Positions 4,401-32,563 of a stretch of 64,000 nucleotides of DNA are shown here, piece after piece. Location of the stretch: the NCBI RefSeq assembly GCF_011516885.1, contig NZ_WOTD01000001.1, positions 186,001-250,000 of the forward strand. The letters run 5' to 3'. Origin of the DNA: Acetobacter lambici. Lineage in GTDB: Bacteria > Pseudomonadota > Alphaproteobacteria > Acetobacterales > Acetobacteraceae. Position numbers and translations under genes: made by a program. The notes under the pieces are model-generated. The model had not been told where the DNA came from. It did not search any database and was given only the letters and a program-made list of their open reading frames with translations. The stretch's first letter is position 1. Each line of letters begins with the position of its first letter.

Positions 4401-6036
4401 GCACGCATCGGCCACCACCCGGCTGGAAACACTCACCCCCGAGCTTGAGCGCCTGCGCCACAATCTGGCAACAGAATCCACCACCGTAACGGAGATGGAA
4501 GCAAACTTGGCCTCGGCCCAGTCCATGCAGCACGCCCAGACCGCCCTGCGCGAAGCACAGGACAGGCTGAACACTGCCAACACAGCGCTACAGGCCGCAA
4601 CACAGATTACGTTGCAAGCCGATGGGCAGGCCGCCGAAACCGCGCAGACCAACCGCAAACTACAGGAGCAGGCCCTTACCCTGCGCAGCCGTCTGGCGGG
4701 GCTGACCCCACGGCAGGCAGACCTGCAAACCGAGCACACGGACGCAACACACCTCCTGCACGCCGCACAGGCCACGCTGGATGCAGCCCTTGCCGCTATA
4801 CCCGAAAACGCCGAAGCCAGACTGGACCACCTGAACACCCAGCGGGCCGACCTGCTGGCCAGACTGGACAGCGCGCGTGAACTACGGGCCGCGTTGCAAG
4901 CCGAGTCCACCACGCTGGCGGACCGACTTGCCGCGCTGGATACCGCACAGGCTGAGTGGAATGCGCGCGAGAGCCTTGCCCGTACGGACAACACCAATGC
5001 CCTCCAGCGGCTGGAAAGCGCACGTGCCAACCATAGCAAGGTGGCCGAACTGCCCACCGCCGCGCAGCAACAAAAAGCCAGCACTCTGGCCGCTCTGGAT
5101 GACGCGGAAGAGCATTTTACCCAGACTGATCGTTTACGGACCGAGGCCGAAGCCGCACTGAACGCCGCTCATGAGCAGCGCCGAAAAACCGAGGGCGAAC
5201 TGGCCACAGCCCGTGAAAATCTGCTCAAGGCGGAAGGTAAGAGCGAACAGGCTCAGGCAATTCTGGACCAGTTACTGGTCGAGACACCAAACCCGCCCAG
5301 ACAACCCGTTTCCGACCTGACGGAAGGGGCCGAAACCTCCCTGCGCCGCAAGATTGCCCGCCTGACCCGTGAACGTGACGATATGGGCCCCGTCAACCTG
5401 CGCGCTGAACTCGAAGCCGAGGAAGCCTCTACTCAGGCCCAGACGCTAGGGGCTGAAATGAGCGATCTGGAGGAAGCCATAAACCGGCTGCGTGGCTCCA
5501 TTGGTTCGCTCAACAAGGAAGGGCGCGAGCGGCTTATGGCCGTATTTACGCAGGTGGACCAGCATTTCCAGTCACTGTTTACGCGCATGTTCGGTGGGGG
5601 GCGCGCCCATTTAGGTCTTGTTGGCAGTGATGACCCGCTGGAAGCCGGGCTGGAAATTTACGCCCAGCCACCGGGCAAAAAACTGGCCACACTGTCTCTC
5701 CTCTCCGGAGGTGAACAAGCTTTAACCGCGCTTTCCTTGATTTTTGCGGTATTCCGCTGTAACCCTGCTCCGATATGCGTATTGGATGAAGTGGACGCTC
5801 CACTGGATGACGCCAACGTAGGCCGCTTTAGCGCCCTGCTCGGCGACATGGTTGTAGAGGCCGGTACGCGTTTTCTGGTTGTGACACACCACCAGCTCAC
5901 CATGGCCCATATGGACCAGCTCTTTGGTGTAACCATGCAGGAGCGCGGAGTAAGCCGCGTTCTTTCTGTTGATCTGGCTAAAGCGGCCTCAATGGTCGGT
6001 CAGAAGGACAAGGAACCCACTGATGTCACATCCTGA
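1489..6036 (+). CDS. smc: Chromosome segregation ATPase SMC, unusually long
   Basis: This 1515-residue SMC protein holds sister chromosomes and organises DNA loops together with ScpA/ScpB. The N-terminal head has KSFADP and the Walker A GPNGCGKSN (about residues 33-41). The C-terminal head has the ABC signature LLSGGEQAL and the Walker B CVLDEVDAPLDD with D-loop. Between them run two very long Ala/Glu/Gln-rich coiled coils around a short alphaproteobacterial-style hinge (about 690-800, with GDLWRWDGFYARAG). Typical bacterial SMCs are near 1150-1200 residues, so the arms are expanded by roughly 150 residues each. Coding is clean throughout with no frameshift. ScpA/B are not in the window. Confidence 0.97.
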   Translation: MTVRFVRLRIVGFKSFADPITVELLPGLTGVVGPNGCGKSNVVEALRWVMGESSARSLRGGEMDDLIFAGTAGRPARSLAEVTVTLEGTKGFGPAAFADLDELQITRRAERGAGSEYRINGRTVRARDVQTLFADLASGARSSAMVSQGRVAMLVGARPEERRSILEEAAGITGLHARRHEAEIKLRATEGNLTRAEDRRVQLTERLSGLAEQSREATRYREISAALREAETELLAVLHARARLAVERAAAMAVQARKNLNEHEETAETAVLAEFEATKALPALREKADAARTALERCRVLAEGVVREEERAAAQAQAAAELLQQHEADAQAAQTRLQDVLDTLERLQTEKAEAQVALTSLPTRTADAEQQLQQLSAQQSETEQALASLTADLNTARAGKERAEDGLTSARARHDRVCHALNTIQAELAELERQLPSEQALATAQERAEQASLAQQAAKAAQEEAERLCAQCNVDLSIAKNNAQAAQAAQTEQQKALQQARQRLTSLQTELQGAEKRHAEALEALVSPDVLNTLQTNSQHATAALDLAAQAQEQAEAERRAASTAFTEASRAAQEAEAHQRSAAEALRTARTTQQRAQQEAQTLARELDKIRAEAIADTVVAEARQARTQHESALAQTGADMEQAEHTLSKQKAQHATACEQQTSLQTELTRLQAQAEGLDQALGQDSAVAENPVSTQITVPEEYENALAAALAEGLDAPTAGDAPQGWRQLPPESLPALPGGAQPLKSCITAPPELDRVLLSTGLLPQGADGRALQQALAPGQCLVSTAGDLWRWDGFYARAGGASTAARRLAQRRILRETQLRLATLQADLPAIQASVATCATAVSTSENALKELRHKRHVQEQSLQKARAHETETERRHASYRARLDAMLPQHERAQAALEEAGATLTKAQTTHESLPSLQDIQSALAATRNTNATAQVAEQQAHTAFKQAQATLQAARDKLARTEQQHASATTRLETLTPELERLRHNLATESTTVTEMEANLASAQSMQHAQTALREAQDRLNTANTALQAATQITLQADGQAAETAQTNRKLQEQALTLRSRLAGLTPRQADLQTEHTDATHLLHAAQATLDAALAAIPENAEARLDHLNTQRADLLARLDSARELRAALQAESTTLADRLAALDTAQAEWNARESLARTDNTNALQRLESARANHSKVAELPTAAQQQKASTLAALDDAEEHFTQTDRLRTEAEAALNAAHEQRRKTEGELATARENLLKAEGKSEQAQAILDQLLVETPNPPRQPVSDLTEGAETSLRRKIARLTRERDDMGPVNLRAELEAEEASTQAQTLGAEMSDLEEAINRLRGSIGSLNKEGRERLMAVFTQVDQHFQSLFTRMFGGGRAHLGLVGSDDPLEAGLEIYAQPPGKKLATLSLLSGGEQALTALSLIFAVFRCNPAPICVLDEVDAPLDDANVGRFSALLGDMVVEAGTRFLVVTHHQLTMAHMDQLFGVTMQERGVSRVLSVDLAKAASMVGQKDKEPTDVTS

Positions 6037-27053: not shown

Positions 27054-27605
27054 GTGAACACGACAGCCCCCCAGACCACCACCTCCAACGCAGCAGACAA
27101 CAGCGCGGCAGCCAGCCCCCTCAAGGTTGGCATTATCATGGGGAGCCAGTCCGACTGGGAAACCATGCGCCATGCCGACGCCATTCTGAACGAGCTGGAA
27201 ATCCCGCACGAGACCCGCATTGTATCCGCCCACCGCACACCGGACAGGCTGGCGGACTATGCCCGCACGGCGGCGGAGCGGGGATTGTCTGTTATTATCG
27301 CAGGTGCTGGGGGAGCGGCACACCTGCCAGGCATGTGTGCGGCATGGACCCGCCTGCCCGTGCTGGGCGTACCTGTAGAATCCCGCACGCTCAAAGGCAT
27401 GGACAGCCTTCTCTCCATTGTGCAGATGCCCGGCGGTGTGCCGGTTGGCACGCTGGCCATCGGGTCCGCTGGCGCCAAGAACGCGGCACTGCTGGCGGCC
27501 TCAATTCTGGCTTTGCAGAACCCGGATCTGGCCGCACGGCTTGAGGCATGGCGCGCGGTACAGACTGCATCGGTCGCCGACACACCCGTGACAGAAAACG
27601 AATGA
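27054..27605 (+). CDS. purE: N5-carboxyaminoimidazole ribonucleotide mutase
   Basis: A 183-residue PurE class I for purine synthesis, converting N5-CAIR to [16 protein letters not shown] (phosphate site), [11 protein letters not shown] with the catalytic His, and [11 protein letters not shown] are clear. A non-conserved Thr/Ala-rich N-terminal tail of about 20 residues precedes the domain. The start is GTG. It overlaps purK by four bases (ATGA), showing translational coupling. Confidence 0.96.
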
Positions 27606-28774
27606 CCCATACACACGCAGCCCTTGCCCCCAACGCTGTTATTGGCATTGTGGGCGGGGGGCAGCTTGGCCGCATGTCTGCTGTTGCAGCCTCCCGGCTG
27701 GGCTATAAAACCCATATTCTCACGCAGGATGCGCACGGCCCCGCAGCACAGGTTTGCAGCGCCATTACTCTTGGCGCGTATGATGACCCCGATGCACTGG
27801 ACGCTTTTGCCAAGGCTGTTGATGTTGTCACGTTCGAGTTTGAGAACATAAGTGCGGACGCGCTGGACCGGCTGAACAGGCACTGCCCCGTACGTCCATC
27901 TGACCATATCCTGCGCATTAGTCAGGACCGGTTGGCGGAAAAGACTTTTCTGGCCTCCGCCGATGTGCCTCTGGCACCGTGGCATGCGGTTACGGACCAT
28001 GCCTCCCTGCTCGAAGCGGCAGCCCAGCTTGGCTTCCCGCTTATTCTCAAGACAACCCGCAACGGATACGACGGCAAAGGCCAGCGCCGCGTTTATACCG
28101 AGGCTGAACTGGACGAAGCGTTTGCCGCACTGGCCCCGCACCCGCTGGTGGCCGAAGGTATGGTCGATTTTGCCTGCGAACTCAGCGTTATGGTCGCCCG
28201 CGGCACGGACGGCACAATCCGGTGCTTTGACACGGTTCTGAACCACCACTGGCACGGCATTCTGGACCTGACACTAGCCCCCGCCCCCGTGCCGGACGAC
28301 GTAGCGCTTGAAGCGGGCCGACTGGCCGCCCTTATTGCCGAACAGTTTGATCTGGTCGGCATTATGGGGGTGGAAATGTTCCTTGTGCGTGATGGCTCGC
28401 TGATGGTGAACGAAGTCGCCCCCCGGCCACACAATTCAGGCCACTGGACAATGGATGCCTGCGCGCAGGACCAGTTTGACATGCACATCCGTGCTGTTGC
28501 GGGCCTGCCCCTGCCCCATGCCGCCCGCCATTCGGACGCGGTGATGAAAAATCTGGTAGGACCGGAAGATATGGCTCTATGGCCCGCCATTGTGGCCTAT
28601 CCGGGCCATATCCCCCACCTGTACGGTAAAAAAGACGCGCGCGTGGGGCGCAAGATGGGGCACGTGAACATTCTGTTCCCCTACGGCGCTCTTCCGGGTG
28701 ACTGGGGCATACAGGCCGCCCTTGGCCCCTTGGCCACCAAATGCGCAGCCCCTTCCCCCGTAGACGAAGACTGA
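27602..28774 (+). CDS. purK: N5-carboxyaminoimidazole ribonucleotide synthase
   Basis: A 390-residue ATP-grasp enzyme that carboxylates AIR using ATP and bicarbonate, the step before PurE. It shows [35 protein letters not shown] (ATP-grasp loop) and [14 protein letters not shown] with the metal-binding Glu/Asn. ATG at 27602 lies inside the purE stop. It converges with radC 34 bases away with no obvious terminator. Confidence 0.96.
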
Positions 28775-28808: not shown

Positions 28809-29561
28809 CTAGAGTAGCCCTGCCTCCTTCATGCTCAGGACCTGCTCCTTGCCTACAATCAGGTGGTCCGCCACATGCAGGCCCACAATCCGGGCCGCGG
28901 CAATGATCTGCCCGGTCATGCTTATATCCTCGGCTGAGGGCGTTGCATCCCCGCTGGGGTGATTATGCACCAGCACAAAACTACCAGCCCGCAGGGCCAG
29001 CGCGCGCCGCACAATCTCACGCGGGTACACGGGGGCATGGTCCACCGTACCGCGCCCCATGACCTCATCCGCCACAAGCCGGTTTGCCGTGTCCAGAAAC
29101 AGCACACGCATCTGCTCGGTTTTATCACGCGCCATAAGGGCCAACAGATAGGCGTTCAGGGCGGGGCGTTCGCACAGAACACTCCCCCGCATCAATCGGG
29201 CACGATACAGGCGGAATATACTTTCCAGCGCAAGAATCAGCAGCACACGTACAGATTCGGGGAGCAGCCGCACACTCCCCTCCTGCTGGCTTGCTGCCAG
29301 CAGGAGGGCGGACAGGGTTCCATATTCCGCAACAAGAGCGACCGCCTGCTCTCTGGCAGGAATGTCCGCCATGCCCGCAGCCCCAAGCAGGGCGGCAAGG
29401 CAGTGCTGGTCATCCGCCCCCACCTGTTCCAGCTTTGCCACGGGCCAGATCTGCGCCAACCCGTCCTGCGGTGCAATAAAAAAGGCGGCACCATCGGCAA
29501 CGCCGGGCTGGGTTGGGGGGCTGCTCACCAGTCTGGCGCCATCTGGCGTGCGCTTGCCCAT
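28809..29561 (-). CDS. radC: RadC family protein with intact JAMM metal site
   Basis: A 250-residue RadC/UPF0758 protein. The C-terminal MPN/JAB domain is complete: VADEVMGRGTVDHAPVYPRE gives the Glu, and HNHPSGDATPSAED is an exact H-x-H-x7-S-x2-D metalloprotease motif. The N-terminal half is divergent and lacks the usual GHR..R/ELLELLL helix-hairpin-helix opening. The frame from ATG 29561 overlaps the upstream paralog by 37 bases, with GGAGGT right against the ATG. A GTG at 29528, overlapping the upstream TGA, is an alternative start. Despite the name, a direct repair role for RadC is not established. Confidence 0.88.
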   Translation of the reverse strand: MGKRTPDGARLVSSPPTQPGVADGAAFFIAPQDGLAQIWPVAKLEQVGADDQHCLAALLGAAGMADIPAREQAVALVAEYGTLSALLLAASQQEGSVRLLPESVRVLLILALESIFRLYRARLMRGSVLCERPALNAYLLALMARDKTEQMRVLFLDTANRLVADEVMGRGTVDHAPVYPREIVRRALALRAGSFVLVHNHPSGDATPSAEDISMTGQIIAAARIVGLHVADHLIVGKEQVLSMKEAGLL

Positions 29562-30292
29562 ACCTCCGGCCCGATCACCAGATGGTCATGCAGGCTGACC
29601 GCCAGCAGCGGAGCAGACTGGCGCATGGCCGCAACAAATGGCGCACTGCTCTGGAGAAGAGCGCGTACATCCTGCCCCTGTTCGGCCAGATACACGGTTA
29701 CAACCGCGCAGGACTGCACCTCCAGCGCACGTTGCAAAATATGGGCGACGCTCTGGCGCACTGCTTCTGCTTCTGCTTCTGCTTCTGGCCCACAGGTTGG
29801 CCGCACCAGTTGCTCATCCACCAGCAGGCTATTGCGGCTATCCAACAGCAGCATGCGCATTTGCGGACGCTCCACCACCTTTAAAGCCGTGTTGCAATAC
29901 TGCAAAAGACTGTCCCAATCGCCTAAATAGGTACGCTCGCCACTCCTGTCCTGCACCAGACATGCCGCAACATGGGGTAATTGCGTGCATAATGCTGCTG
30001 CGCCGCGTGGCATACCCGCCCCATGCAGCGCATCAGGCGTGGACTCGAGCACGCCGGAAAAAGACCCAAACTGGTTGATCAGGCTTTTGGCCAATGGCTT
30101 TGTATCGCGCCGGGGCACCGCGTAGAACAGCAGCATCTCCAGCAGTTCATAATCAGCCAGCGCGCCCGCACCATGGGCCAGCACCCTTTGGCGCATACGC
30201 TTGCGGTGCCCCACAGGCCCGGTGGAGGCAAAAACGGTATCTCCCTCCTGAGTGGAAGGTCTGCGGTCTGGCGGCATCTTTGTTTTCGCCAT
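29525..30292 (-). CDS. RadC-like paralog with intact N-terminal domain but destroyed JAMM motif
   Basis: 255 residues. The N-terminal UPF0758 part is canonical (GHRKRMRQRVLAHGAGALAD, ELLEMLLFYAVPRRDTKPLA, LINQFGSFSGVL). In the C-terminal MPN-like domain the Glu is still there (LLVDEQLV). The H-x-H-x7-S-x2-D motif is replaced by VYLAEQGQDVRALLQS, so no zinc site remains. A four-unit hexamer repeat encoding Glu-Ala pairs (29762-29785) is inserted at the place of the usual PREV segment. It is first of two overlapping genes and divergent from the helicase gene by 45 bases. It looks like a non-catalytic partner (MPN-minus), which is inference. Confidence 0.85.
   Translation of the reverse strand: MAKTKMPPDRRPSTQEGDTVFASTGPVGHRKRMRQRVLAHGAGALADYELLEMLLFYAVPRRDTKPLAKSLINQFGSFSGVLESTPDALHGAGMPRGAAALCTQLPHVAACLVQDRSGERTYLGDWDSLLQYCNTALKVVERPQMRMLLLDSRNSLLVDEQLVRPTCGPEAEAEAEAVRQSVAHILQRALEVQSCAVVTVYLAEQGQDVRALLQSSAPFVAAMRQSAPLLAVSLHDHLVIGPEVWASARQMAPDW
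29762..29785. repeat. TGCTTC hexamer repeated four times inside the RadC-like paralog
   Basis: Four exact tandem copies. On the coding strand they give alternating Glu and Ala. Changes in copy number would keep the frame and only lengthen the linker. Confidence 0.9.
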
Positions 30293-30337
30293 CCTATTGC
30301 TCCGATTGGCCTGAGGCGGACATCACTATATAAGGGA

Positions 30338-32563
30338 ATGGTGACCACATTCGAGCCCCCTTCTCATCCCGCCTCCCACGCCGCCCCCCAAAGCGGTTCC
30401 TCCTACCTTGCGCGCCTTAATCCGGAGCAACGCGCGGCCATTGAGACAACAGATGGTCCGCTGCTGGTTCTGGCTGGCGCAGGTACGGGCAAAACACGTG
30501 TACTAACCACACGCTTTGCCCATATCCTGCTGACCGAGCGCGCCAAGCCGTGGCAGATACTGACGGTAACCTTTACCAACAAAGCAGCGCGGGAAATGCG
30601 CGAACGCGTGGCCACGCTCCTTGGCTCTCCAGCCGAGGGGCTCTGGCTTGGCACCTTCCATGCCCTGTGCGCGCGCATGCTCCGCCGCCATGCCGAATAT
30701 GTGGGACTGACCCAGAACTTTACCATTCTGGATACGGACGACCAGTTGCGCCTGCTCAAACAGGTTATGGAACCGTGGCAGATCGATACCAAACGCTGGC
30801 CCGCACCCGGCCTGCTCGGGGTTATCCAGCGCTGGAAAGACCGGGGGCTAACACCAGCGCGCGTAACCCCTTCGGAAGATACGGATTTTGCCAACAACCA
30901 CGCCCGCGCCATTTACGAGGCGTATCAGGCCCGTCTGATACAACTGAACGCCTGCGACTTTGGCGACCTGATGCTCCATGTGACCGAAATCCTGCGCACC
31001 CGCCCCGATGTGCTGGCCCAGTACCACCGCCTGTTCCGCTACATTCTGGTTGATGAGTATCAGGACACCAATACCGTGCAGTATCTGTGGCTGCGGCTGC
31101 TGGCCAAACAGGCGGATGGCACGGCCAACATCTGCTGCGTGGGGGATGATGACCAGTCCATCTACTCATGGCGCGGGGCGGAAGTTGAAAACATTCTGCG
31201 GTTTGAAAAAGATTTCCCCGGGGCCCAGATTGTCCGGCTGGAACGCAACTACCGCTCAACCCGCCACATTCTGGGGGCTGCGGCAGGGCTGATCGCCCAT
31301 AATGGGGAACGGCTGGGCAAAACCCTGCGCTCGGGGCGGGACGACCCATCGGACGGGGAAAAAGTGCTGGTAACCGGCGTATGGGATTCCGATGCCGAAG
31401 CCCGCAGCGTGTGCGACATGGCCGAAAAGCTGTACCACAAGGGCCAGTCGTTAGCGGAAATGGCCATTCTGGTCCGCGCGGGCTTTCAGACCCGTGCGTT
31501 TGAGGAACGGCTTGTGCAGACCGGCCTGCCCTACCGCATTGTTGGCGGTGTGCGCTTTTACGAGCGGGCGGAAATCCGCGATGCTCTGGCCTATATGCGC
31601 GTGGTCAGCCAGCCTGCGGATGATCTGGCGTTTGAGCGGATCATCAACGTACCCAAACGCGGTGTTGGCCCCGCCAGCATGCAAAAACTGCGCGAGGCCG
31701 CCCGCTTTGCCGGAACACCTGTGAGCGTTGCGACCGAGACCATGCTCAGCACAGGCCAGCTCAAGGGCAAAATGGCCGACCAGCTCCGCACACTGATCAA
31801 CGCCCTGAACACCACGCGCGACATTCTGGGGCGCGAAGGCCACGTTCTGGCAGTTGAACACCTGCTGGAAGAAAGCGGGTACCTGGAAATGTGGCGGCTC
31901 GACCGTTCGCCCGAAGCGCCTGGACGGCTGGAAAATCTGAAGGAACTGGTGCGCGCACTGGCAGATTTTGGCACGCTGGGTGAGTTTTTGGAGCATGTGT
32001 CCCTTGTCATGGAGACGGACGAGAAAGCACAGGACGCCAAACTGTCGATCATGACGCTCCATGGCGCCAAGGGGCTGGAGTTTGACACGGTGTTTCTGCC
32101 CGGCTGGGAGGAAGGTGTTTTTCCCTCCCAGCGCACGCTGGATGAAGGCGGTTTAAAGGGGCTGGAGGAGGAGCGCAGGCTGGCCTATGTGGGCATTACG
32201 CGCGCGCGCAAACAGGCCCTGATCTACCATGCCGGAAGCAGGCGCATTTATGCCAACTGGCAGCCCTCCATGCCCAGCCGCTTTCTGGACGAGTTGCCTG
32301 ACGAGCATGTGACCCGCAAAAACGAAGGGGGCGCTACCCGCCGCAGCCTGTTTGCGGAGGAGAGCCTGTTTGACAACGGCCCCGTTGTAGCCCGCCGCAA
32401 ACGCACCCCCGAGGCCGAACCCGCCTTTGCTCTTGGTCAGCAGGTCCGCCACCCCCGCTTTGGCGTGGGCATAGTGATTGCGGCTGACCGCAACCATCTG
32501 GAAATCGCGTTTGAAGACGCGGGAACAAAACGACTTCTTTCCTCCTTTATCGAGAAATTATAA
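30338..32563 (+). CDS. uvrD: UvrD/PcrA-type DNA helicase
   Basis: A 741-residue superfamily 1A 3'-5' helicase for repair and replication restart. Motifs in order: Q/Walker A region LNPEQRAAI and AGAGTGKTRVL, LTVTFTNKAAREM, Walker B LVDEYQDTNTVQ, GDDDQSIYSWRGA, LERNYRSTRHIL, MTLHGAKGLEFDTVFLPGWE, and RRLAYVGITRARK. The C-terminal Tudor-like domain typical of PcrA/UvrD is present (FALGQQVRHPRFGVGIV). ATG at 30338 or GTG at 30341 follow AAGGG closely; a much longer open frame upstream runs antisense through radC and is not real. Its stop overlaps the prmA start by one base. Confidence 0.95.
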   Translation: MVTTFEPPSHPASHAAPQSGSSYLARLNPEQRAAIETTDGPLLVLAGAGTGKTRVLTTRFAHILLTERAKPWQILTVTFTNKAAREMRERVATLLGSPAEGLWLGTFHALCARMLRRHAEYVGLTQNFTILDTDDQLRLLKQVMEPWQIDTKRWPAPGLLGVIQRWKDRGLTPARVTPSEDTDFANNHARAIYEAYQARLIQLNACDFGDLMLHVTEILRTRPDVLAQYHRLFRYILVDEYQDTNTVQYLWLRLLAKQADGTANICCVGDDDQSIYSWRGAEVENILRFEKDFPGAQIVRLERNYRSTRHILGAAAGLIAHNGERLGKTLRSGRDDPSDGEKVLVTGVWDSDAEARSVCDMAEKLYHKGQSLAEMAILVRAGFQTRAFEERLVQTGLPYRIVGGVRFYERAEIRDALAYMRVVSQPADDLAFERIINVPKRGVGPASMQKLREAARFAGTPVSVATETMLSTGQLKGKMADQLRTLINALNTTRDILGREGHVLAVEHLLEESGYLEMWRLDRSPEAPGRLENLKELVRALADFGTLGEFLEHVSLVMETDEKAQDAKLSIMTLHGAKGLEFDTVFLPGWEEGVFPSQRTLDEGGLKGLEEERRLAYVGITRARKQALIYHAGSRRIYANWQPSMPSRFLDELPDEHVTRKNEGGATRRSLFAEESLFDNGPVVARRKRTPEAEPAFALGQQVRHPRFGVGIVIAADRNHLEIAFEDAGTKRLLSSFIEKL

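Follow-up and report, generated by a model that had tools for sequence, protein, structure and literature searches.

Two genes related to radC lie side by side in Acetobacter lambici, within the window analysed here (a stretch of 64 000 nucleotides). One of them, gene A, codes for a RadC paralogue with a dead JAMM site; the other, gene B, codes for a paralogue with an intact one. The locus raises the question of why an inactive and an active copy are kept, and whether their products work separately or together. Below we compare the two proteins with canonical RadC, follow them through related genomes, and weigh a division of one RadC function between them against the alternatives.

Two RadC paralogues with complementary losses

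The two overlapping frames described in an earlier note on this DNA are both present on the minus strand, A first and B after it, and the two possible overlaps with the alternative B starts are as that note gave them (table 1). They are the sole matches in a PF04002 profile search of the whole genome, whose closest named relatives are Acetobacter species, for example A. lovaniensis and A. fabarum (the genome's own records were possibly excluded from this comparison). Of the two candidate starts of B, the one giving the 4-base overlap is the better conserved: ATG, GTG or TTG stands at this position in 19 of the 23 genomes in which A and B are adjacent, and at the 37-base-overlap position in 10 of the 23 (a 24th adjacent genome, G029, was not scorable because its B is fragmented). 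In genera such as g45, g37, g44, g57 and g61, the open frame of B, counted from stop to stop, opens at the end of A or at most 26 bases before it. At locus L194, the B frame (4638-5807) is extended by a long stretch at its N terminus, and an ATG is available within ATGCCTGA, which overlaps the A stop.

Table 1. Features of the A/B locus, a phosphatase gene found between A and B in a relative, and segments of the natural A-B fusion. Positions are those of the window unless a locus or residues are given.
Feature	Position	Strand	Description
Gene A	29525..30292	-	JAMM-dead RadC paralogue, 255 aa, ATG at 30292
Gene B	28809..29561	-	JAMM-intact RadC paralogue, 250 aa from ATG; 239 aa from GTG at 29528
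A/B overlap	29525..29561	-	37 bases with the ATG of B; GTGA at 29525-29528 with the later GTG
A residues 25-78	30059..30220	-	conserved RadC N-terminal block (GxxGHRxRMR...LADYE...DTKPLAK...FGSF), largely lost in B
A residues 161-234	29591..29812	-	erased JAMM site; variable-length loop
B residues 1-130	29172..29561	-	diverged N terminus, without UPF0758_N match
B residues 199-212	28926..28967	-	JAMM motif HNHPSGDATPSAED
uvrD/pcrA-type helicase	30338..32563	+	divergent from A; ATG start at 30338 assumed, longest ORF opens at 30023
purK	27548..28774	+	convergent neighbour of B
HAD-type phosphatase gene, Gluconacetobacter example	L157:4693-5400	-	between A and B
G063 fusion, A-type N-domain	residues 37-128		i-E 8e-23
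G063 fusion, JAMM-less segment resembling the start of the A MPN domain	residues 173-225		weak alone, i-E 0.45
G063 fusion, B-type JAMM domain	residues 467-607		i-E 8e-39

Protein A is recognized by the RadC model PF04002 (27.3 bits, cut-off 22.1); it scores just below the cut-off of UPF0758_N (24.8 bits, cut-off 27.1) and below that of TIGR00608 (82.3 bits, cut-off 133.85). The motif H-x-H-x7-S-x2-D is absent from it, and nothing similar occurs in the sequence. The JAMM motif is given as EXnHS/THX7SXXD in PMC300881. The loop ahead of the JAMM helix varies from 15 to 51 residues, with 19 different lengths, among 47 A proteins, whereas its length is constant, at 19 residues, in every one of the 36 B and 26 canonical proteins aligned. 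In the window, this dead active-site loop includes a 6-base tandem repeat, CTGCTT, present in 4.5 copies (29761-29787) and giving an alternating Ala-Glu run. The rest of A is not free to vary: the 47 A proteins share 31 invariant columns, and among the residues of the MPN scaffold L148, L150 and N154 are invariant, with D159, E160, R188, A189 and L190 kept in at least 90%.

The earlier note called the N terminus of A a textbook one and its JAMM site erased. The loss of the site stands, and the first N-terminal block is very well kept, but the word textbook is too strong, since the helix-hairpin-helix (HhH) half is kept only in part. The first glycine of the canonical GLG hairpin persists in 89% of A proteins, the conserved H106 and K112 (canonical numbering) in 0% and 6%, respectively, and the canonical hairpin is mostly lost. 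The solved RadC domain 2qlc is matched by the A profile at 1.6e-12; the match of the profile to a region of topoisomerase V is weak (2e-4, no single stretch passing), and those to Hef (0.11) and UvrC (0.21) are not significant. We take the regions of these three proteins matched by the profile to be HhH. The Pfam HhH models HHH_5 and HHH_2 are matched by two of the 47 A proteins and four of the 26 canonical ones. Because the HhH likeness of A is weak and H106 and K112 are lost, classical HhH DNA binding by A should not be taken for granted.

Protein B presents the reverse pattern, a perfect JAMM motif behind a diverged N terminus, as had been claimed. It reaches 134.5 bits with PF04002 and 147 bits with TIGR00608, above the cut-off of 133.85, and has no match to UPF0758_N. 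In genus g37 (11 genomes), B has lost the greater part of its N terminus, its match to TIGR00608 beginning between positions 35 and 77 of the 218 in the model; the match of A begins at model position 1 in eight, among the matches listed. The B proteins of Gluconacetobacter (L155-L157, L159-L163, L167, L172) read HNHPGWNPxPSRED, with GW in place of the usual SG after HNHP and the metal-site letters kept.

The same complementary split is found across the aligned proteins. By per-protein scan (E 0.01), UPF0758_N is detected in all 47 A proteins and all 26 canonical RadCs but in none of the 36 B proteins, and the RadC JAB domain PF04002 in every protein of the three sets (47/47, 36/36 and 26/26). 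Left out of these alignments were eight of the 54 named A loci (L123, L150, L158-L162 and L164; near-duplicates or broken), three of the 38 B loci (L160, L161 and L164) and two of the 28 canonical ORFs (L188 and one of L195); the fragmentary B sequences of L123 and L140 lay outside the 38 B loci from the start. None of the 113 A ORFs contains the HxHx7SxxD motif, which is present in 89 of 91 ORFs of type B and 62 of 63 canonical ones; some genomes appear twice in these counts through different collections, and ORFs below 190 aa and the unclassified L211, L254 and L259 are excluded from them. Both B misses are Acetobacter persici JCM 25330 (L164, the same contig as G009:C232), counted twice, and the canonical miss is L183. 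In the latter (L183:3920-4681), a canonical-type RadC has HNP replacing HNH, possibly an independent JAMM loss or an error in a MAG.

Of the residues that at least 90% of canonical RadCs share, A retains 86% and B 26% in the N-block, and A 28% and B 85% in the JAMM core. The division is blunter elsewhere, with retention in A and B of 64% and 43% in the HhH half, 65% and 73% in the linker, and 51% and 79% in the C-terminal tail. In this pair UPF0758_N and an intact JAMM site do not share a chain: the former is in A alone (below its cut-off in the window protein), the latter in B alone.

Conservation, linkage and selection in relatives

A and B types occur together in 138 related genomes (37 + 22 + 79), the latter two sets being judged mainly by score and 11 of the 79 having no A-type row among the matches listed. 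Within the genus group of the window, an A-type and a B-type sequence occur in each of the 37 genomes searched. Some copies in this group are damaged: B is frameshifted in G005 and G029, A and B are broken in G009, and A is split over two contig ends in G030. The three drafts with frameshifted copies (G005, G029 and G009) are 86-92% complete, and in two of them the best match to uvrD or purK is also partial. Acetobacter okinawensis DsW_060 (L124), of the same species as one of these drafts, has an intact B.

In an order-wide survey, 295 of 299 genomes gave a match, and chosen genomes were then searched for RadC in two sets of 50 and 80. The set of 50 comprises 22 genomes with A and B (confirmed by sequence), 23 with canonical-type RadC only (a class assigned by score; the RadCs of G072 and G232, which are fragmentary, are known from score only), three in which the search found no RadC (G191, G218 and G240), one fusion (G063) and one remnant (G159). 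In the set of 80, two or more RadC matches were found in 79 genomes (an A-type row being among the matches listed in 68 of them), and G086 has a single canonical RadC. Typing was by TIGR00608 score, A falling at about 53-128 bits, B at about 125-209 and canonical RadCs at about 209 or more, so that the classes touch. Named carriers of both types are Acetobacter, Gluconacetobacter, Tanticharoenia and strains KSS8 and KSS12; in Nguyenibacter, A is present on a short contig. The RadCs examined from Roseomonas, Elioraea and Acidiphilium are JAMM-intact. Among 24 genomes representing other families of the class, A was matched in 19 and B in 20, and the 16 RadCs retrieved from them are without exception canonical and JAMM-intact; one of these genomes, G048, has a second, weaker match beyond the 16 examined. 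A third RadC-type match besides A and B, possibly of mobile-element origin, was seen at G112:C102:7878-8462 and at G247:C5:61590-62003.

The survey also covered the arrangement of the genes. In Gluconacetobacter, Tanticharoenia, KSS8, KSS12 and others, A and B flank a HAD-type phosphatase gene that runs in the opposite direction; it was not matched in the Acetobacter loci with overlapping A and B. The two genes are unlinked in 12 of the 37 genomes of the genus group, and also in G061 and G062. Among these 12, B lies beside the phosphatase gene in G006, G019 and G030, and beside purK too in G019 and G030. The overlap is thus one arrangement of several and is not essential, and retention of the pair cannot in general be put down to co-translation; with A and B unlinked in some relatives, an operon does not always enforce their joint expression.

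These results bear on several points of the earlier note. It had proposed that decay or absence of the JAMM-dead gene in most relatives would speak against the pair, and A-type sequence turned out to be kept across the acetic acid bacteria. Conservation of the pair is therefore borne out there, but conservation of the overlap is not general, the genes being separated or unlinked in many relatives, and the statement that both products are made together through the overlap fails as a general rule. Its UvrD neighbour is real and conserved: uvrD adjoins A in 40 of the 54 named A loci, and lies beside A also in small-genome genera (G061, G062, G067, G075, G096, G140 and G163).

The genes pepP, prmA and uvrD lie upstream of A on the opposite strand, and in the window 45 bases (30293-30337) separate the ATG of A from the likely ATG of uvrD. 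On the other side, purK has the same position in other Acetobacter, Tanticharoenia, KSS8 and KSS12; purK-purE follows B in Acetobacter, Tanticharoenia and KSS8, purK alone was seen in KSS12, and purK-purE was not seen near B in the Gluconacetobacter loci. purK is probably not part of the system. A scan of the locus for promoters and terminators was uninformative. No LexA-type site (GTTC-N7-GTTC) was found within the window, and SOS control of the locus was rejected on this ground.

Both genes are under purifying selection. The dN/dS values from 15 species pairs range over 0.18-0.30 (A) and 0.12-0.28 (B), compared with 0.02-0.11 for uvrD, purK and prmA; the dN of A is several-fold above that of its neighbours. 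The slowest part of A is the N-block (median dN 0.10, compared with 0.21 for the C-terminal half). In B, the median dN is 0.47 for residues 1-50, 0.27 for residues 51-130 and 0.09 for residues 131-250, the JAMM domain, which is the slowest part. Synonymous divergence between A. lovaniensis and A. fabarum is 0.41 for A and 0.64 for B, compared with 0.11 for uvrD, 0.22 for purK and 0.09 for prmA; the raised values of A and B suggest recombination or weak codon bias. The rates of A and B co-vary beyond uvrD over 36 genomes (L123, L140 and L164 excluded), with a partial r of 0.57 and 0 of 2000 permutations as high. The corresponding values are -0.02 for A-prmA (1128/2000 permutations) and 0.45 for B-prmA (0/2000). 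Because B co-varies with prmA too, the A-B signal, though suggestive, is weak and unspecific.

Origin of the pair, natural fusion and joint loss

Trees were established from the RadC sequences in a quick and a careful version, the latter with 72 rows (63 of the 135 rows were left out). In the careful tree, A is monophyletic (100/100) and so is B (99/99). A groups with one canonical type, that of Roseomonas, Elioraea and Acidiphilium, with 86/82 in the careful tree and an SH-aLRT of 98 in the quick one. One recent duplication as the source of both A and B was considered and not retained. The placement of B is unstable: in the careful tree it is sister to A plus that canonical type (98/97), and in the quick tree it groups with the other canonical type (91). 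Topology tests leave standing both a single A+B clade (p-AU 0.29) and a grouping of B with the second canonical type (p-AU 0.20). Both A and B have long stem branches. Elioraea tepidiphila (L178) has two RadCs in tandem, both JAMM-intact, and this could be a picture of the ancestral two-gene state.

In genome G063, the one genome in which a fusion was found and the sole representative of its genus examined, A and B are encoded as a single frame of 621 residues beside uvrD. The frame is open over all 621 codons; there is some residual chance that it arose through a sequencing error in which a stop was lost. In the same genome (G063:C1:1895482-1896987), the uvrD match spans residues 6-499 of 741 within an open frame of 1000 residues.

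Genome G159 carries one decayed RadC remnant, the DNA of which retains an HNH-like site, and no A. With the remnant taken for a former B, G159 is read as a joint loss of A and B.

A probable division of RadC function between two proteins

We consider it probable that A and B are two halves of one RadC function, split between paralogues and acting together, most likely as an MPN-minus/MPN-plus complex. The reading is based on the complementary domain losses, the conservation of both genes, the selection acting on them, the fusion and the joint loss. In the proposed mechanism, B would supply the metal-dependent RadC/JAB catalytic centre, and A an N-terminal domain, distantly HhH-like, together with a catalytically dead MPN domain that keeps its scaffold residues. 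The dead MPN domain of A would pair with the active one of B, and A would bring B to a nucleic-acid substrate or regulate it there, possibly close to UvrD. In this account the pairing of the proteins, the targeting to DNA, the nature of the substrate and any link to UvrD activity are inferences; the fusion supports a direct MPN-MPN contact only indirectly. An isopeptidase activity of B is doubtful, because a published analysis (PMC5512222) considers RadC-type JAB domains unlikely to have a groove for the ubiquitin tail and favours nucleic-acid or nucleotide processing.

The loss of catalytic residues and the dN of A, several times that of its neighbours, might suggest a decaying duplicate on its way out. 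Decay is nonetheless ruled out, at the level of near certainty, by the invariant columns of A and its dN/dS; A-type sequence extends across the 138 genomes (with the 11 noted above lacking such a row among the matches listed), and frameshifted copies are confined to the three incomplete drafts. It is also improbable that A and B are independent proteins with new, unrelated functions that have become neighbours by chance. The long stem branches, the unlinked genes of some lineages and the rate co-variation of B with prmA fit such independence, but their losses relative to canonical RadC are complementary, a natural fusion exists, and the two are present together in those 138 genomes (same reservation) and lost together in G159.

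The remaining alternative keeps both proteins in the same pathway, in line with the fusion and the joint loss, and dispenses with the MPN-MPN heterodimer: A would bind DNA or act as a regulator on its own, its JAB fold being vestigial; B would be a lone enzyme, and any contact between them transient at most. We regard this as rather unlikely, though clearly less so than independence. It would agree with the faster evolution of the C-terminal half of A than of its N-block, and with the many relatives in which A and B are unlinked or separated by the phosphatase gene. Against it, A retains residues of the MPN scaffold, three of them invariant in all 47 proteins, and the G063 fusion keeps a stretch like the start of the A MPN domain along with the JAMM domain of B. 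The proposed split-function complex can be compared with several known systems.

Canonical RadC (TIGR00608/PRK00024; UPF0758_N + PF04002) is the source of both genes, A keeping the N-domain and residues of the MPN scaffold and B the JAMM domain. It carries both parts in one chain, whereas here they are in two paralogues, with A below the TIGR00608 cut-off. The two active RadC paralogues of other Acetobacterales, as in Elioraea tepidiphila L178, belong to the same family, and A groups with one such type; unlike A and B, both copies are JAMM-intact. Among eukaryotes, CSN5-CSN6 is a known MPN-plus/MPN-minus heterodimer. Another is formed by Rpn11 with Rpn8, reported as an enzymatically inactive MPN subunit (PMC4749569). 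In these pairs, as in A and B, one JAMM-intact and one JAMM-dead MPN paralogue are kept together. The present pair differs in being bacterial and of RadC-type JAB, with no ubiquitin system implied, in being a proposed dimer, and in having a dead partner that bears a RadC N-terminal domain. Rpn11-Rpn8 may serve as the closest working analogy; we do not claim membership of that class. The RadC JAB domain has been linked to DNA-acting modules, namely RadC-like DinG helicases and polyvalent proteins (PMC11981726, PMC5512222). In the RadC-like DinG proteins, candidate metal-site residues are reported to be conserved and the domain is fused to the helicase, whereas here a dead RadC paralogue is involved and UvrD is encoded by a neighbouring gene. 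No prior description of a JAMM-dead/JAMM-active RadC pair was found among the literature matches listed, a search with most subscription journals outside its scope.

On a broader proposal our judgement is evenly balanced: that the pair is a bacterial MPN-plus/MPN-minus enzyme that arose independently of Rpn11-Rpn8, in which a dead RadC subunit bearing the N-domain positions an active RadC-type metalloenzyme on DNA, and that its relatives record the steps from a single active RadC through two active paralogues and an active/dead pair to a fused pair and joint loss.

RadC is widespread, and its biochemical function is unsettled in the sources consulted; in Zymomonas mobilis, radC has been counted as a thermotolerance gene (PMC5571576). 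The split pair offers a handle on what RadC does. The acetic acid bacteria provide a natural separation-of-function experiment, with the catalytic centre and the N-terminal module in separate genes, so that each can be deleted, purified or mixed alone. If the A/B complex is real, it would be a bacterial counterpart of the active/pseudoenzyme MPN pairing of the proteasome lid, with its evolutionary intermediates still living.
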